28,963 nt of DNA, taken from the IMG/VR virus record IMGVR_UViG_3300009181_003674, positions 1 to 28,963 of that record; one strand, 5' to 3'. Positions 2,167 through 28,963 of the stretch are shown here, in pieces. The first letter of the stretch is position 1, and the number at the start of each line of letters is the position of its first letter. The position numbers were made by a program, and so were the translations under genes. A model generated the notes under the pieces. That model did no database searches. It saw only the letters and a list, made by a program, of their open reading frames with translations, and was not told the origin of the DNA. The DNA comes from a virus.

Positions 2167-3711
2167 TTATTTAATAGCAAATCCAATTTTTCCAACTGGT
2201 CTGCGTGTAGCGTAGTAATTGCCGCCTGGGTCCATTAGGATCTTGCCGGTAAACACTGGTGGATAGATAACTTCAAAGTTGGAGAAGAACGCACCACCCT
2301 GTGCGGCATCTGTGTCTTTGGTCACAGTCAAAGTAGTCTTAACTTGGATCATGTTACTTCGTTCCAAACACATTCTAAAGAATTTATCAGTTAATGGATT
2401 GTTGTTGATTTTATTGGCAATACCCTGTGCTAACCCTGCCAGCAAGTGCCACCCTATTCTATAGTCATTGCGCTGGTCATCATCAGTACCCTTGTATGAT
2501 AAGAGAGTATTTAAATTGTTTGCTTTTAACTGTTTTGGTGACACGTGTTGTTGGTCGCTGTCAATAATGGCCAACAATGCGTCAGATTGAACTCTATTGA
2601 TAATCTCAGTATGCACACCTAATTGTAGTACTCCAGCAATAGATCCATTTCTATACCATTGATTGCTACCAGCTACATAATCCATGTCTGGGTTTTTAAT
2701 CATGAGTACAACATCATACAACTTTTTCATTTCTTCTTCATCAAACATGCCTTCAAAACGCTCTGGATATTTTGTAATGTCGTCTACCATACCTGAAATA
2801 CTGGCTTTGGCACCACCTTTTTTATCCTTGCTACTTACACGAATAATGTTGTTGTCATCAATGATCAAGTAACTGTCATATAATTTTTCAGCTGGATCAT
2901 TTGGGAATTCAACTCCTCTAATCTTAGCAAATCCGCCAGCTCCACCTAATATTGAATCTTCGGCTTCTTGCCATGAACCACTAAGGAATCGTTGTTTAAC
3001 TAGGGCAATAGGTGCCGCCGTTTCACCTAGATCAATTTCATAACTTTTTGCATATTTGTTTGCGCCTGAAACTGGGGAGTTTCGACCTGCGGCAACATTC
3101 TCAAGTAGTGCGACTACTTGATCCTTTATCTCTTGACTTAAATCAGCTCTACCAGCAATTACACTGGCAACATCACTAGGGATATCATCTGTTGCAATTT
3201 CTGCATTAGTAGAAGCAATACCAACTGGTTTTAAATTAGTTGACGCTCTTTCTTGTACACCTGAAACTTTATCTTCCTCACCTTTTTTAGCACTGAGTTG
3301 CTGATAACCAGTTAGATCTGAAAACAACTTGGTTTGTAAAAAGATTGGATATGCTCCAGGTTTTCTTTTTCCTTTTAACGCAATCCATCCTACTCGTTTA
3401 CCTGTTGCCGCATCTTGAAAAACCAATGCCATTGCAACACCTGCTTTGTCTGGAGTTGATAGTCCGCTTGTAGCTGGGAGTGTTTTAAAGTCTGCTGTGG
3501 CAATACCGTTTGCTTCAGCAAAAGCAGTTAATTGTGCTATCAACTCGCCTGGCTCAAGTTCAGTTTCTACTTCTGGAATAATAACAGCATCAATCATGTC
3601 AATGACAGCGCCGGCATTATTTTTAAATGACACACGTTTTCCTCGACTGGCTTCTTCGGCTCGTCGTAACATGCCGCCTTCTGATTCAATTAAAAATTCT
3701 TTTGCTCTCAT
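2167..3711 (-). CDS. Unknown 514-aa protein with a T4-type capsid-targeting N-terminus (predicted internal, injected protein)
   Basis: The N-terminus MRAKEFLIES matches the T4 capsid-targeting sequence of internal proteins (MKTYQEFIAEA as remembered): an E-F-(I/L)-x-E-small core with an (L/I)xE site where the gp21 prohead protease cuts, here after Glu9. In T4 this peptide sends proteins into the prohead core for delivery with the DNA. The rest is soluble, without membrane segments; a segment around residues 280-305 (YDSYLIIDDNN, then IIRVSSKDKKGGAKAS) faintly recalls PD-(D/E)xK nuclease cores, which I would not call a match. Transcription fits a late gene: GATAAATA lies 7 bases before the ATG, no Shine-Dalgarno is present, and a strong terminator follows. 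The function after injection is unknown. Confidence 0.75.
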   Translation of the reverse strand: MRAKEFLIESEGGMLRRAEEASRGKRVSFKNNAGAVIDMIDAVIIPEVETELEPGELIAQLTAFAEANGIATADFKTLPATSGLSTPDKAGVAMALVFQDAATGKRVGWIALKGKRKPGAYPIFLQTKLFSDLTGYQQLSAKKGEEDKVSGVQERASTNLKPVGIASTNAEIATDDIPSDVASVIAGRADLSQEIKDQVVALLENVAAGRNSPVSGANKYAKSYEIDLGETAAPIALVKQRFLSGSWQEAEDSILGGAGGFAKIRGVEFPNDPAEKLYDSYLIIDDNNIIRVSSKDKKGGAKASISGMVDDITKYPERFEGMFDEEEMKKLYDVVLMIKNPDMDYVAGSNQWYRNGSIAGVLQLGVHTEIINRVQSDALLAIIDSDQQHVSPKQLKANNLNTLLSYKGTDDDQRNDYRIGWHLLAGLAQGIANKINNNPLTDKFFRMCLERSNMIQVKTTLTVTKDTDAAQGGAFFSNFEVIYPPVFTGKILMDPGGNYYATRRPVGKIGFAIK

Positions 3712-3718
3712 AGTAGAG

Positions 3719-3726
3719 TATTTATC
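3719..3726 (-). promoter_or_regulatory. T4-like late promoter box GATAAATA
   Basis: GATAAATA overlaps the stop codon of the bilin reductase and lies 7 bases before the ATG of the 514-aa gene. Compared with T4 late TATAAATA it differs at the first base. Transcription would start within a base or two of the ATG, giving a nearly leaderless message. Confidence 0.6.
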
Positions 3727-4411
3727 AGATTTCTGGGAACAGACAATCCTGAATGAACACAGCGATATCGGCCTCGTTTAGTCCTAAACTTGCCATTACT
3801 TTGGGTGTATGTGGATTTTGTTTTTGATTATCGCAGTAATAATTTTGATGTGCTGATGTATCAAGACTAGTATTGTTTGTCTCAGAAACCGCACTCAAAT
3901 AATGCTGTAAATTATAGCTGGCCATTTCAGAAATTTGTGCTAGTTCTGATTCATCACTAACATTACCAGCGGCCACCATTGACTCTGTGAATATACGTTT
4001 AGCCCACTCAGGAAGTTCACGCTGTTTGCGCCATTCTAATTTGGCAACTTCATCCCTAAACCACTCGATCATTGGATGGAATACGTCACCGGCTGGACTA
4101 AAATCATGAAAGCATCCAGTGATTTTTGTTTTACCAGCTACAACATCAAATCCAAATATAGGAGCGGGATTATGTGTATGTGGGAATACACAACAATGCA
4201 TCATCCAAAGTCCCTTTGTCTTTCTGGCATCAACTACATCAATGTGTGCCCGTCTGTAGTTTTCACTGGTCCAAACACGATTGACCCAACCAGGTTGATT
4301 AAACCGATCCATTCCTGGTTCGTTAATTTCTCTTCCAGTCAAGTCAAACTGATTGACAAATTCTTCTTGGATACCTATTAGTGTATCCCATACATTATTT
4401 GTTGAGTTCAT
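3725..4411 (-). CDS. Ferredoxin-dependent bilin reductase (PcyA/PebS/PcyX family)
   Basis: This 228-aa protein should reduce biliverdin IX-alpha to a phytobilin with electrons from ferredoxin. Family signatures are seen in order: RRAHIDVVDA, then MHCCVFPHTH, APIFGFDVVAG and HDFSP, whose Asp103 matches the catalytic Asp of PcyA (Asp105 as remembered), then the C-terminal YYCDNQKQN...TPKVM stretch common to FDBRs. Length is normal. Marine phages are known to carry FDBRs (PebS in cyanophages, PcyX in uncultured oceanic phages); an isolated PcyX-like enzyme making phycoerythrobilin is my best guess, but the product cannot be read from sequence. It overlaps the heme oxygenase end by 17 bases, so the two are co-translated as heme to biliverdin to bilin. 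No ferredoxin gene is in the window. The start gives MNSTNNVWDT. Confidence 0.88.
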   Translation of the reverse strand: MNSTNNVWDTLIGIQEEFVNQFDLTGREINEPGMDRFNQPGWVNRVWTSENYRRAHIDVVDARKTKGLWMMHCCVFPHTHNPAPIFGFDVVAGKTKITGCFHDFSPAGDVFHPMIEWFRDEVAKLEWRKQRELPEWAKRIFTESMVAAGNVSDESELAQISEMASYNLQHYLSAVSETNNTSLDTSAHQNYYCDNQKQNPHTPKVMASLGLNEADIAVFIQDCLFPEI

Positions 4412-4934
4412 TCATGTCTTTCATAAGACTAATGGCAAAATCAAAAGCAACATTGGCTTCATCACCCATGGTGTCATTTAACTTGCTACGAATCTTATTT
4501 TTAAGTTCTTCACCGTTTTCAAATTTGTACATAGTTCCAGATCCTGGAACACGTTTAGCAATCATTTGTCCACCAGCAAGGTCGCCCATGTGTCTAACAT
4601 ATACGTGTGCAAACAGTCTATCTGGATTTGGTGCTAGTTCGTCTTTGATATATTTTAGGTATCTATCAACTGTTGGACATAGTTCTGGTGGTTTGGTATC
4701 TTTCCACAATTCTAAATAATCTTGATAGATAGAATTTGCTCTACATAGATCATCTAGACCATCCATTGATCCGTTTATCATGGCAAATGACTCTAGTACA
4801 TGATATATTGGATGCAGATTAAACAAAAAGGTGGCATACCGTTCTTCAGTAATGTTACCACCCAATAGTTCTTTTACAAACGCAGTACGTTCAGCGTCAT
4901 GATGCTTTTCAGCAGTTAACTCTCTTAAACTCAT
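4395..4934 (-). CDS. Heme oxygenase (heme to biliverdin, CO and iron)
   Basis: This 179-aa HO-1-type enzyme carries KHHDAER near the N-terminus, in which His11 is the likely proximal heme ligand (compare SHxxAEN in cyanobacterial HO), and GDLAGGQ at 117-123, the flexible distal-helix motif (usually GDLSGGQ). It is shorter than cyanobacterial HO1 (about 240 aa) but both ends of the catalytic core are present. Its start overlaps the clpS stop by ATGA and its end overlaps the bilin reductase start, making a three-gene operon clpS-ho-FDBR under the sigma70-like promoter at 5276-5304. The reaction needs ferredoxin from the host and frees one iron per heme. Confidence 0.92.
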   Translation of the reverse strand: MSLRELTAEKHHDAERTAFVKELLGGNITEERYATFLFNLHPIYHVLESFAMINGSMDGLDDLCRANSIYQDYLELWKDTKPPELCPTVDRYLKYIKDELAPNPDRLFAHVYVRHMGDLAGGQMIAKRVPGSGTMYKFENGEELKNKIRSKLNDTMGDEANVAFDFAISLMKDMNELNK

Positions 4935-5236
4935 TCTTCTTCCAATTTAATTTGTAGTGGGAACCCGCTTGCTCTTGCCAAATTAGTTGATTCAACTGCT
5001 TTAGCTTCTGCAATTTCAAAAGTATATGTGCCAGCAACAGCACTACCTTGTTGATGAATTTGTAGTGTGATGTCTCTTGCAATTTCTTCAGTGTGCTTGA
5101 ACACTTCGGTTAGAATACCAACAACAAAGTCCATTGGGGTATGATCGTCATTAAGTAAAATTACCTTCCACTTTTTTGGCTCCATGACCTTTTGTTTAAT
5201 TTTTTCGTCTAATTTGATGTCTGTTGTAGTTGTCAT
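4931..5236 (-). CDS. clpS: ClpS-like N-degron adaptor of the Clp protease
   Basis: The 101-aa product matches ClpS over its folded domain: KWKVILLNDDHTPMDFVV contains the NDD/TPM residues (29-31, 33-35) that hold the substrate N-terminus, and QIHQQG supplies the conserved pocket His61; AEAKAVESTNLA continues the family pattern. In bacteria ClpS delivers proteins with N-degron residues to ClpAP, so a phage copy could alter which host or phage proteins are degraded. First gene of the operon with heme oxygenase and bilin reductase; GGAG ribosome site, about 33-base leader with a 5-prime hairpin. Confidence 0.9.
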   Translation of the reverse strand: MTTTTDIKLDEKIKQKVMEPKKWKVILLNDDHTPMDFVVGILTEVFKHTEEIARDITLQIHQQGSAVAGTYTFEIAEAKAVESTNLARASGFPLQIKLEEE

Positions 5237-5254
5237 TTATTTTTCTCCGTAAAA

Positions 5255-5272
5255 GGGGAAGTTGCCTTCCCC
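5255..5272 (-). promoter_or_regulatory. Hairpin at the 5-prime end of the clpS operon mRNA
   Basis: GGGGAAG/CTTCCCC pairs over 7 bp around a 4-base loop (GCAA on the minus strand, a GNRA tetraloop). The promoter at 5276-5304 would start transcription in or just before its first arm, so the mRNA would begin with a stem-loop, which commonly protects messages from 5-prime decay. On the minus strand it is followed by TTTT, so it may also partly terminate hsp20 transcripts. Confidence 0.6.
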
Positions 5273-5275
5273 CTT

Positions 5276-5304
5276 ATTATATTACTTAACCTCGACGATG
5301 TCAA
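5276..5304 (-). promoter_or_regulatory. Perfect sigma70-type promoter for clpS-ho-bilin reductase
   Basis: On the minus strand TTGACA (5299-5304) is followed by exactly 17 bases and TATAAT (5276-5281). The -35 lies inside the last codons of hsp20. It makes the bilin operon independent of the late hsp20 promoter and probably early-expressed. Confidence 0.85.
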
Positions 5305-5719
5305 TCAAGCGTGGCTTCAATTCTTCAGGTATTACTCTTTCAATAATTACTTGAAGAACGCCGTCTTGTATTGTAGCACCGTTAACTATCATATGCTCTG
5401 CCAATGTAAACTGGCGAACAAAATCTCTGGCGCTTAATCCTCTGTGCATATACACCGTAGTTGTATTTACAGTTTCAGATTTTTGTCCTTTGATTACTAG
5501 TTGGTCTTGGTCAACCTCAACAGTAATTTCATCTTTCTTGAATCCGGCAACAGCAATTTCAATGATATAATTGTCATTGTCAGCTTTGAGTATGTTGTAC
5601 GGGGGATAGTTGGATGCTAGTTGATTTGCAAATCTTGATTCAAATGTGTCAAACATTCTATCAAAACCTACAAGTGCTCTATTTAGAGCTTGAGTGTCAA
5701 TACGTGTTAATGCGTTCAT
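5282..5719 (-). CDS. Small heat-shock protein (Hsp20/alpha-crystallin family)
   Basis: From ATG 5719 the product is 145 aa (MNALTRIDTQ...), an ATP-independent holdase chaperone. The N-terminal MFDTFESR helix, the PPYNILKADNDNYIIEIAVAGF entry to the alpha-crystallin domain, VDQDQLVIKGQK, the HRGLSARDFVRQFTL segment and the late VLQVIIERVIPEE strand are typical of the family. An upstream in-frame ATG at 5794 would add 25 residues, but 5719 has a strong AGGAG ribosome site and the family-like N-terminus, and the extra part overlaps a structured leader. Expected from the late box at 5800-5807, consistent with the presence of hsp20 in many T4-like marine phages. Confidence 0.93.
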   Translation of the reverse strand: MNALTRIDTQALNRALVGFDRMFDTFESRFANQLASNYPPYNILKADNDNYIIEIAVAGFKKDEITVEVDQDQLVIKGQKSETVNTTTVYMHRGLSARDFVRQFTLAEHMIVNGATIQDGVLQVIIERVIPEELKPRLIDIVEVK

Positions 5720-5750
5720 AGTTTTCTCCTTTATTAAGCAAGAACGTTTT

Positions 5751-5765
5751 TGGACATCATGTCCA
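5751..5765 (-). promoter_or_regulatory. 15-base palindrome in the hsp20 leader
   Basis: TGGACAT-C-ATGTCCA lies in the roughly 80-base leader between the late box and the hsp20 start. Upstream in the same leader TGCAA (5790-5794) can pair with TTGCA (5771-5775) around a CCC/GGG inner stem. An operator or RNA-structure control element, possibly heat-responsive, is possible but untested. Confidence 0.4.
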
Positions 5766-5799
5766 TTTTGTGCAACCCCACCCGGGCATTGCATAAAAT

Positions 5800-5833: not shown

Positions 5834-7378
5834 TCATAAAGAAAGTAATTTTATTAAGTATTGCTCTTTTTGTTGTTTTACTAATACGTTATATGAGTCC
5901 ATTCCTTTGGCAAATTTATACATTGTTATTGAATCTAACTCTTCTTTACTTATACCTATATTATGTAATCTCATTATAGACCAATTCTGTAGGCTGTTTG
6001 TTTTCATTATTTTTAACATAATACCATATGCTATTTCTTGGGCTTCAGAAAATGTCATGTTTTCATTTGCCCAACTAAGAGATGCGCTTGGTATCGGAAA
6101 TGTGTAACCATATTTTTCTGGGTTGTCTCCAAATATGCTTCCCATGCCCCTTGCCAAATATAATGGATGAATGCCTGCGGCATCTAACATACACTCATCA
6201 GAACTCATATAATTTTCTAATTCTTTTATTGTGGTTTTTGTTTCGTGTGGTAATCCAACAATAAACCCAGAAGTAAGATGTACAGACTTGCCCCATGCGG
6301 TTTTTAAATCGTAAAGAGTTTGTTTTATTTTATCTGAATGCATTCCTTTGCCAATAGATTCACCAGATTTTTTGTTAAAAGTTTCAATACCAAAAAATTG
6401 ATTAACAACTCCAGTTTCTTTTAGTATGTGTTTCATTTCTGGATTTGAGTGATATAGTTCTAATCTAGCAAAGCCTCCCCATTCTATTTTAAATGGCAAA
6501 TTTGCTATAACATCATGTAAAAATTCAGCTTTTTCCATAGAGTCATTAGTAGTCTCATCCATAAACATATATTTTGTAGTGCCAAAATTTTCGTAATTAT
6601 ATATGAATTCAGATTGTAACGTTTCTTTGGATTTAGTATAATCTCCACGTTTTTTTCCTATCAATGGAAAATTACAAAACTTACATTTAAAAATACAACC
6701 CCTAGCAATTTCTATTGGTAAGTATTCGTCTTTACGCACAAAATCATTTGGTAAAAATTTTATCCTAGATGTATTGAATTCATTATACTCGTAGTTGCCA
6801 AACGATTCAATAATATTTTTAGATGGTCCATTGAATACAGGCTCAGGATTCGTTGAGTCGTATAACCATTTGGTTAAAACAACAGCAGATAAATCTGCAT
6901 TTCCTTTTATATAGTAATCAGCAACAATTCTTCTAGCAAATCCGTCTGACTGCATGGCCTGCCATGCTTTAGCTCCTCCAATTACAATTTTTATTTTTTC
7001 ATTCTTACTTTTAATATATTTGAAAAATTCTTTCATGTCTTCAGTTGAATGACTAAAAACGTATTGTGCTGTTGGCATCCACCTTTTTGCTATAAAGTCT
7101 TTAAAAGATATATTTCCGTCAATTGCATCTAATAAATCCTTTGAATTTAAGTCAGTATCAAAATACGAAAGAAATGTTGTTGAAAACCCTACCCATAATG
7201 TATCTTTTGATACAAATTTATCTACTATCTTTTTTAATTCGTCTAATGTATAATGAGTAAAATAATCAACTATTTGACAAGAAAAGTTATTATTTCTCAG
7301 ATGAGTTGCTATAAGATATGCTCCAGCATTTTTCCCATAGCCAGTGTTACATATATCTGAAAATATTAATATTTGCAT
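5834..7378 (-). CDS. Radical SAM protein with B12-binding-like N-terminal domain, function unknown
   Basis: The 514-aa protein contains CIFKCKFC, the C-x3-C-x2-C [4Fe-4S] cluster motif (Cys228, 232, 235), in a context (EIARGC...NFPL) typical of B12-binding-domain radical SAM enzymes. The first 200 residues look like a cobalamin-binding-type Rossmann domain (ILIFSDI, WVGFSTT, KIVIGGAKA, YYIKGNADL), but the cobalamin DxHxxG motif is not evident, so B12 use is doubtful. Later MFMDETTNDS, WGGFARLEL, FFGIETFN and SGFIVGLPHET are the usual radical SAM barrel strands. The substrate cannot be predicted. An AATAAATA late box sits 4 bases before the ATG, without Shine-Dalgarno. Phage IscU/IscA could supply its cluster. 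Confidence 0.85.
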   Translation of the reverse strand: MQILIFSDICNTGYGKNAGAYLIATHLRNNNFSCQIVDYFTHYTLDELKKIVDKFVSKDTLWVGFSTTFLSYFDTDLNSKDLLDAIDGNISFKDFIAKRWMPTAQYVFSHSTEDMKEFFKYIKSKNEKIKIVIGGAKAWQAMQSDGFARRIVADYYIKGNADLSAVVLTKWLYDSTNPEPVFNGPSKNIIESFGNYEYNEFNTSRIKFLPNDFVRKDEYLPIEIARGCIFKCKFCNFPLIGKKRGDYTKSKETLQSEFIYNYENFGTTKYMFMDETTNDSMEKAEFLHDVIANLPFKIEWGGFARLELYHSNPEMKHILKETGVVNQFFGIETFNKKSGESIGKGMHSDKIKQTLYDLKTAWGKSVHLTSGFIVGLPHETKTTIKELENYMSSDECMLDAAGIHPLYLARGMGSIFGDNPEKYGYTFPIPSASLSWANENMTFSEAQEIAYGIMLKIMKTNSLQNWSIMRLHNIGISKEELDSITMYKFAKGMDSYNVLVKQQKEQYLIKLLSL

Positions 7379-8264: not shown

Positions 8265-8474
8265 TTAATAAAGTTTATTAGGTAATTGCTCTTTTTCCAA
8301 CTTTTTCTTATAGCGTTGGATACCGGCGGCTTTTTTGCGTTTGCGTTTAGTAGTTGGTTTTTCATAGAATTCTTTTTTACGTAGATCATCAAGAATTCCA
8401 TTCTCTTCAACTTTCTTTTTAAATCGACGTAATGCTCGGCCCACGTCTTCACCATCTTTAACATATACTATCAT
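8265..8474 (-). CDS. rpsU: Phage-encoded ribosomal protein bS21
   Basis: The 69-aa product is a full-length bS21: [45 protein letters not shown] follows the alphaproteobacterial type with RKREFYEKP and a very basic C-terminal half. bS21 sits on the 30S platform near the anti-Shine-Dalgarno region and is exchangeable, so a phage copy could retune which messages initiate. Its start shares one base with the upstream stop (TAATG). Its presence matters because several promoters here appear to make leaderless mRNAs. Confidence 0.93.
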
Positions 8475-8890
8475 TATTCTTCCTTTGATTCATCATCAAT
8501 ATCCTCATCTTCTTCAGTAAATGATGCTACCACTGCATCTAAATTATAAATCCTATTTTTACTAATAAGTCCATATGGAGTTATTTCATCATTAGTTATA
8601 TAGTGCGTATTGGGTTGAGCCAATAAAAAAGTAACAAACAATTTGGTAGTTGGATCACAATTATCAACATCAATTACTGTGACATCTGCTTGCATTGCCA
8701 CACTCAACAACCAACCAATATCTGTTTCTTCTTGGTCGTAAATGAAAACATTTAATTCTTCAATATTATGACTCAATATTGTTTGGAATTGTTGTTTGAC
8801 ATTTAATGATGGTTTGATTAACAAATAGCTCATATTTAAATTGAACAGTTTGTCTGGAGGTGTGATTATGTTTATTTTTCCAAGGTTCAT
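8474..8890 (-). CDS. Conserved-looking phage protein of unknown function
   Basis: From ATG 8890 the product is 138 aa ([17 protein letters not shown]...), ending in an acidic tail ([14 protein letters not shown]). It looks like a small alpha/beta protein with alternating strands ([35 protein letters not shown]); I do not recognise a family. An in-frame ATG at 8953 would add 21 residues and overlap the preceding gene by 62 bases; 8890 is preferred because it lies one base after that gene's stop and gives a natural first strand. Neither start has a clear ribosome site. Overlaps bS21 by one base. Confidence 0.65.
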
Positions 8891-8891
8891 A

Positions 8892-10289
8892 TTATGATTT
8901 ATTTTTGATTCGTTGCCAAATTGACTCTTCAGTTTGTTCACTGTTTTGAACATAATCTACTGGCGGCTTTTCTTCACTTGCTGATCCGCTTGTTTGACTA
9001 TGTAAGTCATTTTTTTTTTGGTCACTGTCTGTGATTGTTTCTTGTTTAGGAAAATCTGGCTTGGGGGTTGTTAAATCCCGTTGCAACTCTGGAAATAATT
9101 TGTATTTTGATGCAATTTCTGATTTTTTATCATCAGTTAACTCGTCCCATGGAAGCTGTTCAATTATACCCAAGTCTTTTAACATTTCTTGATGCTTAAT
9201 TGTATCACTGGGATTTTGTTCTTTCCATACTGTCTTTGCAGATTTTTCTTTTTTTACTTCTTTATCAGCTTCCTCAATCATCCGGTTCCATTTGTCTAGC
9301 TCTGACTCTGTAGGTACTTCTTCTACAGGTTCCTCCGGTGCTGTTATATCACCTCCTAGTGCAGTCAACGGTGTTTCGCTTGGAACTTCTTCTGTGTGTG
9401 TTTGTTCTTGTGTACGTGGTGGATCCCACTCTAATTCAATTTCTGTTTTTGGTAATTCTTCTTTAGGAATAAACTCTGTAGGTTGCGGCACAAAGTCATT
9501 AATACTTACAGCCTTAATAGGTTCTGTGTCTTCACGCTTCCAACCAAATGTCATTTGTGCGGCTAGTAACATGATAACTGCCAACGGATCAAACACAACA
9601 ACTATGAGAACAATGATCCATGTTACTGCTTTTTCCAACATGTTTTCATCTGCACCTTTATCACCGTAGATAAATTTGGCGATGTATTTTATTGGGCCTA
9701 CTTCAGCTTCTACTTTACGTACCTCTGCACGAATTGGCGCGGCCTCGTCATTAAGAGTAGCAATAAGTTTTTGGTTGGCTTCAATGTCTTTGGCCAAAGC
9801 AACACGATCACGGGACTGATTTTTCCGTATGCTGACTGCTTTGTCCGCACCTTTTTCATCTTGACTGCGGCCCATGACTTGGTCAACTGCCTCATCCATT
9901 TGTTTGAGTTGCTTGCGGTTGGCTTCAATATTTTCTCGTGCTGTTTTGATTTTCTCATCATATATTGCAATCTTGCTTTGAACATCACCTGACACTAAAT
10001 TTTGATCATTATGCGCTTTGCTGAGGAATCCAAAAATACCCATTGAAGTTATAAGCATCAACACAACCACAGCAGTAATCATGTAATATCTCATAAAACG
10101 TGGAGCACGTTCCCAATTGGCCTTCAGCCAACTGGCGCAGACAAGTTTACCTATTTCTAATGCTGACCCCATTATTATAATAGGTATTGCCGCCGCAGAA
10201 AATATAGCGGTTAATCCCACTACTGAGTAATAGATTGCAACCGCCGATATTGTTAATCCTGTAAGTAAAAGTAACCAAGCTAAAGTCAT
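8892..10289 (-). CDS. Large membrane protein with a periplasmic or cytoplasmic coiled coil
   Basis: The 465-aa protein has three hydrophobic segments in the first 95 residues (about 2-26, 30-52, 69-92), a Lys/Glu-rich coiled-coil region (about 95-205), a fourth membrane segment (about 215-245, WIIVLIVVVFDPLAVIMLLAAQ) and a long acidic, Pro/Thr/Glu-rich tail. No catalytic motif is recognised. The topology suggests a host inner-membrane protein made late. GATAAATA lies 4 bases before its ATG with no Shine-Dalgarno. Confidence 0.8.
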   Translation of the reverse strand: MTLAWLLLLTGLTISAVAIYYSVVGLTAIFSAAAIPIIIMGSALEIGKLVCASWLKANWERAPRFMRYYMITAVVVLMLITSMGIFGFLSKAHNDQNLVSGDVQSKIAIYDEKIKTARENIEANRKQLKQMDEAVDQVMGRSQDEKGADKAVSIRKNQSRDRVALAKDIEANQKLIATLNDEAAPIRAEVRKVEAEVGPIKYIAKFIYGDKGADENMLEKAVTWIIVLIVVVFDPLAVIMLLAAQMTFGWKREDTEPIKAVSINDFVPQPTEFIPKEELPKTEIELEWDPPRTQEQTHTEEVPSETPLTALGGDITAPEEPVEEVPTESELDKWNRMIEEADKEVKKEKSAKTVWKEQNPSDTIKHQEMLKDLGIIEQLPWDELTDDKKSEIASKYKLFPELQRDLTTPKPDFPKQETITDSDQKKNDLHSQTSGSASEEKPPVDYVQNSEQTEESIWQRIKNKS

Positions 10290-13282: not shown

Positions 13283-13609
13283 TCAAACCCTAAACGATTC
13301 TCCACATCCACAGCGGTCACGTTCGTTGGGATTGACGAAATCAAAACCTTCATTTAGTCCATTGCGGACCCAATCCATTGTTAAGCCATTTAGATACACT
13401 AGACTTTTGGCATCTACTAATAAAACAAAATCTTTTTGAGCAAAGTTGGTAACACCGACCTCAGCTTCATAGCTATCCACATATTCCATAGTATAGGCCA
13501 ATCCACTGCATCCTGTGGTCCTTACACCTATGCGAATACCTGCGCCTTTGCCACGGCGCTCTAAATTCAGTTTAATCTTTTTATACGCTGTGTCGGTTAC
13601 GGTAATCAT
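13283..13609 (-). CDS. iscA: IscA/ErpA-type iron-sulfur carrier
   Basis: The 108-aa A-type carrier keeps the three cluster cysteines: Cys34 in TTGCSGLAY and Cys100/Cys102 in DRCGCGESF. A-type proteins bind iron or a cluster and pass it to apo-targets. Its start overlaps the end of iscU by 29 bases, so the scaffold and carrier are co-translated. Length is normal for the family and nothing is missing. Confidence 0.95.
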   Translation of the reverse strand: MITVTDTAYKKIKLNLERRGKGAGIRIGVRTTGCSGLAYTMEYVDSYEAEVGVTNFAQKDFVLLVDAKSLVYLNGLTMDWVRNGLNEGFDFVNPNERDRCGCGESFRV

Positions 13610-13961
13610 TTACAGCCGCTTTGATGGCATCCTCGGCCAATATGCTACAATGTATTTTAACCGGAGGTAACGCAAGTTCTTCAGCAATTTCACTATTTTT
13701 AATAGATGATGCTTGATCAAGACTCATACCTTTTACTAACTCAGTAATAAGAGAACTGCTAGCAATAGCACTGCCGCAGCCATACGTTTTAAAACGTGCA
13801 TCGGTAATAATACCATCTTCTACCTTAATCTGTAGTTTCATTACATCGCCGCAAGCTGGTGCGCCAACCATACCGGTACCAATTGTAGGATCACTCTTAT
13901 CAAAAGATCCAACGTTCCGGGGATTTTCATAGTGGTCAATTACCTTTTCAGAATAAGCCAT
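13581..13961 (-). CDS. iscU: IscU iron-sulfur cluster scaffold
   Basis: The 126-aa protein is an intact IscU: APACGDVMKLQ (Cys37, Asp39), TYGCGSAIASSS (Cys62), and LPPVKIHCSILAEDAIK (His104, Cys105) supply the cluster ligands. LPPVK (98-102) is the motif recognised by the HscA chaperone, so it should work with host IscS and HscA/HscB; no cysteine desulfurase is present here. AAAGG precedes the ATG. With IscA it would support cluster supply for the radical SAM protein, and indirectly host ferredoxin used by the heme oxygenase and bilin reductase. Confidence 0.95.
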   Translation of the reverse strand: MAYSEKVIDHYENPRNVGSFDKSDPTIGTGMVGAPACGDVMKLQIKVEDGIITDARFKTYGCGSAIASSSLITELVKGMSLDQASSIKNSEIAEELALPPVKIHCSILAEDAIKAAVNDYRNRHSV

Positions 13962-17146: not shown

Positions 17147-17175
17147 ATTATATAGGTATTATTTGATGCTGTCAA
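17147..17175 (-). promoter_or_regulatory. Perfect sigma70-type promoter giving a leaderless message
   Basis: TTGACA (17170-17175), 17 bases, TATAAT (17147-17152). The seventh base after the -10 is the A of ATG 17140. The -35 overlaps the last codons of the PAAR gene. Confidence 0.87.
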
Positions 17176-26506: not shown

Positions 26507-27607
26507 TTAAAAATTTGGTAGTGCTTCGTAATCAAGAGATTCACTCATTGCCCCAATTACATAATTAGTTGATTCGTTTTCTTGTAGGGCAGTTTGTTTT
26601 TTACTTGTATCAGTATGCTTGTTGAACCAAGGGATTGGTGTAGTCTTTGGTGCAGTATTATTATACTTTAGACCAATATCTTTTAGCGCACCCACTGCTG
26701 TGTAGTCCACAAAGTCTTTTAAAATGTTAGCGTTAAGACCAATCACTGGGCCTTTGTTAAACAAATAGTCAGCCCAGGCTTTTTCTTCACGGATCACATC
26801 CATGTACAGTTGATATACTTCTTGTTCACATTCTTGTTTGGCTTCAGCAAAGCGTGGATCTTCTTTGACCACTTGATTAATCAAATAGGCTGTCCATCCT
26901 TTGTGTAGTAATTCATCTTGCAAGATCAACTGAATAATATTGCCGTTACCAATAAAGATCTTGTTCTCCACCATTGCTAAACTAGTAGCAAAACTAACCA
27001 TAAAGCGGAAAGCTTCTAGTGCATAGCTGGCATGTAAAGCCATCCAAATTGCACGAACATGCTCTTTTTCAGTAACTGTCTCACCTAACTGTTTACGGCA
27101 GTTGACCACATGCAATGCTTCGTAATAGTCACCTACACTGGAAGCCATGTCAATAATTTCTTTAGTATCATGAATTGTGTTGAACACATCCTTAGGTACA
27201 TTATAAATGTTACGAATAATATGACTGTAGCTCTTACTATGAATATTTGTTTCAAAGAAAGTCCAGTTGTATACAAGTGCTTCTAGTTCTGGCAAGCTAA
27301 CCACTGGCATAAAGATTTGACTTGGTCCACGTCCTTGTAAACTATCCAATGCTGTTTGTCTTAACAAGTTACTGGTAAAGATGTGTTTAACTGCATCACT
27401 GGCATCTTTAAAATCGTTAGCATCTTTACTAAGACTAATCTCTTCTGGTTGCCAAAAGAAGCCACGTGCAGTAGCTTCAAAGTCTGCAATCTTTTTATAC
27501 TTTACTTCTTCAAAACGTTGGATAGTAACTGGACCAGCTGGGTCAAGAAACATCTTACGATTGAGGTAATCTGTTTTTGTGTTTAAGTTATATTGTTGTT
27601 TACTCAT
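26507..27607 (-). CDS. nrdB: Ribonucleotide reductase class I small subunit
   Basis: The 366-aa NrdB houses the di-iron tyrosyl-radical cofactor. Seen ligands: Asp88 in ALDSLQGR, Glu119 and His123 in FFETNIHSKSY, the radical Tyr127, a later Glu in ALEAFRF, and DELLH for the second ExxH. Compared with E. coli numbering (D84, E115, H118, Y122), one extra residue sits between the first Glu and His (ExxxH), confirmed in the DNA. It shares one base with the nrdA stop (TAATG) and is followed by glutaredoxin. Confidence 0.96.
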   Translation of the reverse strand: MSKQQYNLNTKTDYLNRKMFLDPAGPVTIQRFEEVKYKKIADFEATARGFFWQPEEISLSKDANDFKDASDAVKHIFTSNLLRQTALDSLQGRGPSQIFMPVVSLPELEALVYNWTFFETNIHSKSYSHIIRNIYNVPKDVFNTIHDTKEIIDMASSVGDYYEALHVVNCRKQLGETVTEKEHVRAIWMALHASYALEAFRFMVSFATSLAMVENKIFIGNGNIIQLILQDELLHKGWTAYLINQVVKEDPRFAEAKQECEQEVYQLYMDVIREEKAWADYLFNKGPVIGLNANILKDFVDYTAVGALKDIGLKYNNTAPKTTPIPWFNKHTDTSKKQTALQENESTNYVIGAMSESLDYEALPNF

Positions 27608-28963
27608 TATAGCTTACATGCCTCACAGTCATCTTCTAATTCCTCTAGTTGGTGTCCGTTATAGTGTACCTCAACTGGAGTAGGCTCAGCGGCTGACTTG
27701 GATCCTTGCTTGTTGATCAAACTGTAGTAGAATGTTTTTAATCCCCATATGTGTGCTTGCATCAAGTTCTTAGCAATCAATGTAGTTGGTACTTTGCGAT
27801 CTGCAAAGTGTGCGGGATTATAGAATGTGTTAGTGCTGATACTTTGATCCACATAGGCCGCAAGCACTGCCGCAGTTTTCAAATAGCCATCACAGTCCTT
27901 TTGATCCCACATAAGTTGATACTTGTTTTTCAATCTATGATACTCAGGAACAACTTGAATAAATGATCCAGCTTTTGATTCCTTTACACTGATAAGACTC
28001 ATTGGCATTTCAATACCATTGGTACTGTTAATCACAACTGAACTTGATTCAACTGGAGCAATGGCCATTAGTGTGGCATTGCGTACACCATATTGCTTCA
28101 TGTTACCACGTAGTGTTTCCCAGTCCAATTCAGGAGTAAAGTCTGCCAATTGATTTGCACCATCAGCACGTAGTTCCCATGGAAAAACTCCTTGTCCATA
28201 ACGTGTGTGTTCACTGTGTGTACATGCGCCACGTTCCTTGGCCAGTTCTACTGTGGCTTCTGTTAGATAGTATGCTTGATGTTCCATCCAGCTCTTAACA
28301 TCTTGTAGTGCATCTTTCTCACCATACTGGTAGCTACGTTTGGCATGCCAGTAGGCCAAGTTAGTGACTCCAATGCCCAACGGTGATATTTCATCATTGC
28401 TTAGTTTGCTTTGTATGCTTAGAAAATCTTGGTAATCAAGTATGTTGCATAGACTGCGCTGTAAAATGCGGCAAGCACGGCGCATGTCTTCTGGATTACG
28501 GAATGCTCCCCAGTTGATTGAGCCGAGTGTGCAAAGAGCAATACGGCCAGTATCATCATCAAGACGTTTAAAAGATTTTGTAGGTAATAGTATTTCACAG
28601 CAAAGGTTACTCTGGTAAATTGTATGATACGCAGGATCAAATGGTCCTTGATTTTGTACGTTGTCAATGAACACAAGATAGATACGTCCGGTGTCAGTAC
28701 GTTCTTTTAGTATGCCACTTTTAAAGACTTCTTCGGCACTCATAGTCTTAGTACGTAAGTCTTTACGTTTTTCATATTTTACATACAACTCTTCAAACAG
28801 TTTGATATTGTTGTAGAACGCTTCATACAAGTCAGGCACTTCATTAGGATCAAAGAATGTTATGTCTTCTTTGTTTTTAAATCGTCTCCAGAAGAAAGCA
28901 CTAAGCACAACCCCATAATCCATATGACGGACTCGGGTTTCTTCTGTTCCTTGGTTGTTCTTA
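27607..28963 (-). CDS. nrdA: Ribonucleotide reductase class I large subunit, 5-prime part outside the window
   Basis: The frame stays open to the right edge (NNQGTEETRVRHMDYGV precedes the first internal Met at 28923), so only about the last 450 residues are present. Visible are SNLCCE, with the catalytic Asn-Cys-Glu (E. coli N437, C439, E441), IALCTLG with the second redox Cys, GLKTFYYS with the paired radical-transfer tyrosines, and the C-terminal CEACKL whose cysteines accept electrons from glutaredoxin. It forms nrdA-nrdB-glutaredoxin, reducing ribonucleotides for phage DNA synthesis. Confidence 0.96.
   Translation of the reverse strand, partial: KNNQGTEETRVRHMDYGVVLSAFFWRRFKNKEDITFFDPNEVPDLYEAFYNNIKLFEELYVKYEKRKDLRTKTMSAEEVFKSGILKERTDTGRIYLVFIDNVQNQGPFDPAYHTIYQSNLCCEILLPTKSFKRLDDDTGRIALCTLGSINWGAFRNPEDMRRACRILQRSLCNILDYQDFLSIQSKLSNDEISPLGIGVTNLAYWHAKRSYQYGEKDALQDVKSWMEHQAYYLTEATVELAKERGACTHSEHTRYGQGVFPWELRADGANQLADFTPELDWETLRGNMKQYGVRNATLMAIAPVESSSVVINSTNGIEMPMSLISVKESKAGSFIQVVPEYHRLKNKYQLMWDQKDCDGYLKTAAVLAAYVDQSISTNTFYNPAHFADRKVPTTLIAKNLMQAHIWGLKTFYYSLINKQGSKSAAEPTPVEVHYNGHQLEELEDDCEACKL

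Follow-up and report, generated by a model that had tools for sequence, protein, structure and literature searches.

A Heme Oxygenase and PcyX-Type Bilin Reductase Cassette behind clpS in a Putative Jumbo-Myovirus Lineage

Gene Organization of the Locus

The window, the whole stretch of DNA analyzed here, comprises 28,963 bases and is a linear fragment from IMG/VR. Three genes follow one another on its minus strand: clpS (4931–5236), coding for a predicted N-degron adaptor of 101 amino acids (Pfam ClpS, PF02617, E 1.7e-28); a heme oxygenase (HO) gene (4395–4934; 179 amino acids, Heme_oxygenase, PF01126, E 1.5e-21); and a gene for a ferredoxin-dependent bilin reductase (FDBR) of the PcyX type (3725–4411; 228 amino acids, Fe_bilin_red, PF05996, E 2.6e-16). 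The clpS and HO genes overlap by 4 bases (ATGA, with the HO start lying over the clpS stop) and the HO and FDBR genes by 17 bases. The constant upstream neighbor of clpS is hsp20 (5282–5794, minus strand), which encodes a small heat-shock protein (PF00011, E 3.1e-18) and is also adjacent to clpS in most relatives. A sigma70-type promoter, TTGACA-17-TATAAT, with 12 of 12 positions matching, is found at 5304–5276 (minus strand), its -35 element lying within the last codons of hsp20. The first-pass annotation had claimed a perfect sigma70 promoter in front of overlapping clpS, HO, and FDBR genes, which was borne out by the open reading frames, the Pfam matches, and the 12/12 site; it had overlooked the hsp20 neighbor and a hairpin described below.

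Thirteen bases downstream of FDBR lies a gene (2167–3711, minus strand) for a 514-amino acid protein with neither a Pfam nor a PHROG match, which is possibly cotranscribed with FDBR. Some relatives carry a homolog (23–77% identity) at this position, and the slot is otherwise variable. The proteins encoded in this slot of the relatives repeatedly share an MRxxEFL-type N-terminus, possibly a targeting signal. Farther upstream, a B12-binding-type radical SAM protein (5834–7378, minus strand; PF04055, E 2e-12) belongs to the neighborhood only and lies outside the operon; its match to the B12-binding domain is weak.

Recurrence of the Operon and Its Lineage

A search with the window FDBR yielded 304 related viral stretches, of which 79 loci were kept (the window cluster), and a search with the FDBR of contig PBPT01000016 gave a second cluster of 80 loci (the L102 cluster). 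Genes for ClpS and HO/FDBR accompany each other in 75 of the 79 and 77 of the 80 loci, respectively, and of the 74 nearest ClpS loci that extend far enough downstream, 73 have HO/FDBR behind clpS; these three locus sets partly overlap and share ancestry, and the counts are not independent. The ATGA overlap is present in 63 of 76 relatives, in which clpS is translationally coupled to HO.

The common gene order in the window cluster is o465, o159, exonuclease, mazG, hsp20, clpS, HO, and FDBR, often with csgF and csgG next; o465 (8892–10289) and o159 (8474–8953) are unnamed open reading frames of the window. Most inspected relatives have a DnaK-like open reading frame (about 630 amino acids; the copy in one of them, L041, is Hsp70, PF00012, by Pfam) between exonuclease/mazG and hsp20, where the window has the radical SAM gene.

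Contigs of the window cluster reach 280, 345, and 400 kb. No capsid gene was found within the 28,963-base window; a T4-type gp23 was detected in four relatives of 214–400 kb that share its neighborhood, and that of the 400-kb relative shares 69.5% identity with the gp23 of Phosso, a Sinorhizobium phage of 469 kb, and 69.3% with that of a 349-kb Vibrio phage. Judging from these relatives, the window is probably a piece of a jumbo myovirus. The 400-kb relative also encodes a Gram-negative-type porin, which fits a Gram-negative host and proves nothing.

Several contigs, L102 (PBPT01000016.1, 335 kb), L099–L101, and L103, were binned in bacterial MAGs of various phyla and are phage-like by neighborhood or genes. 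A bacterial origin of the FDBR was considered and rejected: the genome scan returned only six matches, mostly seeming virus contigs in bins, including one beside phage structural genes and one on a 335-kb contig with the same neighborhood. Another of the six, on a genome contig of Shewanella surugensis (L104:7450–8792), consists of HO, then an FDBR match to residues 5–75 only, and then a transposase-like open reading frame, and appears to be a broken copy from a bacterium or prophage.

Promoter and Hairpin Upstream of clpS

Perfect TTGACA-17-TATAAT sites occur three times in the window (5304, 11675, and 17175), all on the minus strand, compared with 0.015 expected in a first-order Markov sequence. 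The sites at 17175 and 11675 each lie just 5' of an open reading frame. Among relatives, a perfect site was found in 12 of 58 distinct clpS-upstream regions versus none of 174 control stretches. The perfect clpS promoter is thus real in a subset of relatives; it is no general rule, because the remaining upstream regions have no perfect site. The two further perfect sites in the window suggest a phage-wide promoter class.

A GC-rich hairpin, GGGGAAG-GCAA-CTTCCCC, with a GNRA-type loop is located between hsp20 and clpS, downstream of the promoter (5272–5255, minus strand). It was detected in all 73 upstream regions of the window cluster and in 57 of the 67 of the L102 cluster, its loop being mostly GNRA, and its score was reached by 7 of 2,600 shuffles. 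Among 23 distinct hairpins, all seven stem pairs vary on both sides, 99.4% of cells are paired (0 of 500 shuffles equaled this), and shifting the partner strand drops pairing to 53–77%; these pairing figures are inflated, since each sequence had been trimmed to its predicted hairpin with a loop of four bases, a procedure that itself favors pairing, and the variety of paired stems stands. The transcription start expected from the window promoter (about 5269) falls inside the hairpin, and therefore the full stem would form only on read-through from hsp20. A canonical intrinsic terminator was rejected, as the T-run after the hairpin is absent in most relatives. We infer that the hairpin may be a processing, stability, or attenuation element.

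Family Assignment and Conservation of the Three Proteins

The window FDBR matches the solved PcyX structure 5owg over its full length (E 3.9e-70, vs. 5e-16 for PcyA 2d1e) and is 52% identical to pelagiphage PcyX and 25–31% identical to cyanophage PcyA. In the phylogenetic tree, the PcyX group stands apart from PcyA and PebS, and within it the window cluster is the sister of a group made up of Mosig-like PcyX and the L102 cluster (support 0.91–0.97 in both cases, as FastTree local values only). A tree of the kind proposed in the first-pass annotation thus places the window enzyme in the PcyX group. Asp105, His88, and an Asp at the position of Glu76 (PcyA numbering) are present in the window and in all 148 distinct viral FDBRs; the absence of Glu76 has been described for PcyX (PMC10151467).

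The proximal His of HO is conserved in 168 of 168 sequences and the GD-x-x-GG frame of the distal helix is kept (GDLAGGQ in the window), so that the window protein has both the proximal His and the distal glycine-rich helix of a canonical, HO-1 type heme oxygenase. The best solved relative of the window ClpS is ClpS2 (4yjm, E 1.4e-20). Its degron pocket contains N34, D35, D36, T38, M40, and H66 (E. coli numbering; NDD-T-M-H), and among 114 distinct relatives D35, T38, and H66 are invariant and N34 is found in 113. These pocket residues mark the window ClpS as a predicted N-degron adaptor.

Median pairwise dN/dS in the window cluster was 0.078 for FDBR, 0.087 for HO, and 0.186 for ClpS; the corresponding values of the L102 cluster were 0.121, 0.138, and 0.307 (Nei–Gojobori estimates, with nonindependent and in many cases saturated pairs). 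HO and FDBR are under strong purifying selection, from which we conclude that the function of both bilin enzymes is being preserved. In published work on relatives, PcyX formed phycoerythrobilin (PEB) and the HemO of phage CB_2 formed biliverdin, and the FDBR of CB_2, the experimentally tested freshwater phage enzyme, made PCB and not PEB (PMC11480375). The most likely product of the window FDBR would be PEB, by four-electron reduction. The conversion of heme to biliverdin and then to a reduced bilin, as first claimed for this locus, is supported by catalytic residues that are kept in all distinct relatives.

Comparison with Known Systems

The window has adjacent HO and FDBR genes on the same strand of a phage genome (a virus record with phage neighbors), as in published hemO-pcyX cassettes. 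HO is likewise directly upstream of, and overlaps, a PcyX-type FDBR in pelagiphage Mosig EXVC030M and in the oceanic PcyX locus (EBK42635, PDB 5owg), whose FDBR is 52% identical to that of the window and shows the same D76/H88/D105 signature. In the 141-kb Mosig genome, the cassette precedes the neck genes and follows genes for 2OG oxygenases and one annotated as ferrochelatase; unlike the window, it has no clpS or hsp20 beside it, and the window FDBR falls in a separate cluster. Freshwater and marine phages such as CB_2, which infect non-photosynthetic hosts, have these enzymes in valaS/vhemO/vpcyA-X cassettes (Wegner et al. 2024, PMC11480375), and ALAS is likewise present in some relatives of the window. 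However, the CB_2 FDBR, which makes PCB, groups between PcyX and PcyA, unlike the PcyX-type enzyme of the window, and the main text of that paper does not mention clpS. Cyanophage PcyA and PebS are phage-borne members of the same FDBR superfamily, but residue 76 is Glu in PcyA and Asp in the window enzyme, and PebS branches at a great distance from it in the tree.

The core idea, PcyX and HO in phages of non-cyanobacterial hosts, is therefore already known from pelagiphage Mosig and from Wegner et al. (2024), where such hemO-pcyX/pcyA cassettes, freshwater ones included, were reported and their purpose was called enigmatic (PMC11480375). We found no earlier description of the setting, in which hsp20, clpS, HO, and FDBR recur together in a putative T4-related jumbo-myovirus lineage (related contigs of 280–400 kb). 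Here the cassette is a near-constant trait and not a sporadic acquisition, and it is placed in a chaperone/protease-adaptor neighborhood, which bears on the question of what bilins are for in phages whose hosts are non-photosynthetic bacteria. We found no paper joining clpS or a halogenase to a hemO-pcyX cassette in a search that left most subscription journals outside and is not proof of novelty.

Two isolated jumbo phages, Phosso (Sinorhizobium) and Atu_ph07 (Agrobacterium), resemble the lineage of the window in having hsp20 close to clpS; unlike the window, they have a thymidine kinase gene between the two and neither HO nor FDBR. Conversely, clpS is found in none of 80 Mosig-like pelagiphage loci, in which HO-PcyX precedes neck genes. 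Either half of the operon can thus be found alone. Jumbo phages are already known to carry ClpS (PMC7824862), and because of the arrangement in Phosso and Atu_ph07, clpS near hsp20 looks like an older trait of such phages. The further suggestion of the first-pass annotation, that ClpS acts with the bilin genes in a coordinated takeover of host proteolysis, was not upheld, as hsp20-tk-clpS exists without HO or FDBR; these two groups of loci also weaken ClpS as a sign of a joint program.

Search for Photosynthesis Genes and Bilin Partners

The locus had been described at the outset as lying in a phage without evident photosynthesis genes, and cyanobacterial markers, ferredoxin, bilin lyase, and GAF genes had been named as worth searching for. 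No credible example of any of them was found in the relatives, which agrees with that description. The psbA gene was absent from 72 distinct records (searches of 40 and 33, with one shared), CpeT lyase from 37 records, and a credible phycobiliprotein from 39 records; each of these three families was detected in the cyanobacterial control. One weak partial Phycobilisome-family match in a 400-kb contig, inside an open frame of 4,122 amino acids, was read as spurious. No GAF protein was found in the large relatives and no Fer2 ferredoxin in 39 records, and two Fer4_7 fragments in a 76-amino acid frame were below threshold. Most of the records searched are fragments, for which absence is only suggestive, and several are 200–400 kb long. 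A search for AmoC (pmoC), which bears on the idea of a methanotroph host (CB_2 is a proposed Methylocystis phage), was empty in 38 relatives and in the control as well. ALAS was detected in 8 of 39 relatives, including one 280-kb and one 400-kb contig, and lies tens of kilobases away in long contigs.

Since the operon recurs in well over 100 related fragments without photosynthesis genes, the bilin probably serves a purpose other than a cyanobacterial light antenna.

Possible Roles of the Cassette

Our preferred reading, held with moderate confidence, is that the lineage carries a hemO-pcyX cassette of the published type, coupled behind clpS near hsp20, and that synthesis of the bilin for its own sake most likely explains it. 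The genes, their catalytic residues, coupling, conservation, and selection are read from sequence, whereas enzyme activity, product, host, and purpose are inferred. In the proposed pathway, HO would open heme to give biliverdin IXalpha, iron, and CO, and the PcyX-type FDBR would reduce biliverdin by four electrons, most likely to PEB. Electrons would come from a host ferredoxin, given that no phage ferredoxin was found. ClpS would act as an independent adaptor of host proteolysis that merely shares the transcript. The virus would then gain from the reduced bilin, or from complete removal of heme into one, and not merely from iron. ALAS in relatives and the ferrochelatase-annotated gene upstream of the cassette in Mosig point to a supply of heme, so that flux to a product fits better than net iron release. 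Arguing against this reading are the lack of a bilin-binding partner in the large relatives, the occurrence of ALAS in a minority of them, and the formation of PCB by the CB_2 enzyme.

Scavenging of iron or heme is possible, if clearly less probable. HO would free the iron of host heme for iron enzymes of the phage (class Ia RNR, 2OG-Fe(II) oxygenases, and Fe-S assembly by IscU/IscA), and FDBR would only clear biliverdin so that HO turns over. The window does encode RNR subunits (27607–28962 and 26507–27607), a 2OG-Fe(II) oxygenase, and IscU/NifU-type and IscA-type proteins, and a supply of iron has also been proposed in the literature (PMC11480375). However, FDBR is as constrained as HO and keeps the specific PcyX active site, where a mere sink would need less, and the 8 of 39 relatives with ALAS would gain no net iron by building heme in order to break it. 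We place iron second because making a precursor while degrading heme fits a wanted product, which is a matter of judgment.

Less likely again is the supply of a chromophore, in which the bilin would be loaded into a host phytochrome or another bilin-binding protein and alter light sensing or stress signaling. In E. coli, PCB made by the CB_2 phage enzymes gave rise to a functional phytochrome, and globins that bind bilins occur in non-photosynthetic bacteria (PMC11480375, PMC10151467), but neither a GAF protein nor a credible phycobiliprotein was found in the phage relatives and no host receptor can be named.

We regard as improbable a joint action of ClpS and HO on host heme metabolism, whereby ClpS would promote degradation of glutamyl-tRNA reductase by Clp while HO removes heme. 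Clp degrades this reductase (GluTR/HemA) in Salmonella and in chloroplasts; the chloroplast enzyme is bound by ClpS1 and is subject to control by heme (PMC7966870). The coupling of clpS to HO in 63 of 76 relatives would suit such a scheme. Against it stand Phosso and Atu_ph07, which have hsp20-tk-clpS alone, the 80 of 80 Mosig-like loci with HO-PcyX and no clpS, and the ALAS-carrying relatives, which would bypass HemA. Finally, a cyanobacterial host whose phycobilisome would receive the chromophore, as suggested by the carriage of HO, PcyA, and PebS by cyanophages, is very hard to reconcile with the absence of psbA (0 of 72 records), CpeT, and a credible phycobiliprotein in searches whose cyanobacterial control contained each family, with an FDBR 52% identical to pelagiphage PcyX and less than 32% to cyanophage PcyA, and with a major capsid protein that, in the 400-kb relative, is closest to those of Sinorhizobium and Vibrio phages.

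Halogenases between HO and FDBR

Extra DNA was found between HO and FDBR in 41 loci. The slot contains Trp-halogenase-family proteins, carbon-nitrogen hydrolases, 2OG oxygenases, and once a second HO-like gene (by Pfam for those tested). About two dozen relatives have a flavin-dependent halogenase there (e.g., L057:6512–8059, L246:4493–5989, L253, L218, and L241); in the window, no halogenase match was found. The slot halogenases have intact catalytic Lys and Glu residues and group as a single clade in a tree that also contains outside relatives (local support 0.92). All halogenases found by the scan at 51% identity or more lie behind HO in this operon, one of them on a contig that ends before FDBR; at 43–44%, the L057 protein (44%; likewise that of L308) lies behind HO and two others are located elsewhere. 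Most contigs with a slot halogenase had no other halogenase that we could find. The CN hydrolase was rejected as operon-specific, as only 8 of its 80 relatives sit in the HO-FDBR gap.

This dedicated halogenase clade behind HO suggests that bilin, biliverdin, or heme may be the natural substrate. It is conceivable, albeit with low confidence, that in the part of the lineage with the order HO, halogenase, and FDBR, sometimes with a CN hydrolase, a tailored, perhaps halogenated linear tetrapyrrole is made; the window operon, which has no halogenase, would then end at a plain reduced bilin. The halogenase between two bilin enzymes is a specific lead that can be tested with purified proteins.

Other Observations in the Window and Its Relatives

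In one relative (L429:4842–5594), a membrane protein that resembles fatty-acid desaturases by eye directly follows HO, at the place expected for FDBR. CsgG and CsgF homologs are encoded at 204–2036 of the window, and relatives add an adjacent curlin-like repeat protein (by eye; L064:12345–13196); phages of this lineage may carry curli-export genes. The IscU/NifU-type and IscA-type Fe-S assembly genes of the window are adjacent and overlapping (13283–13961).
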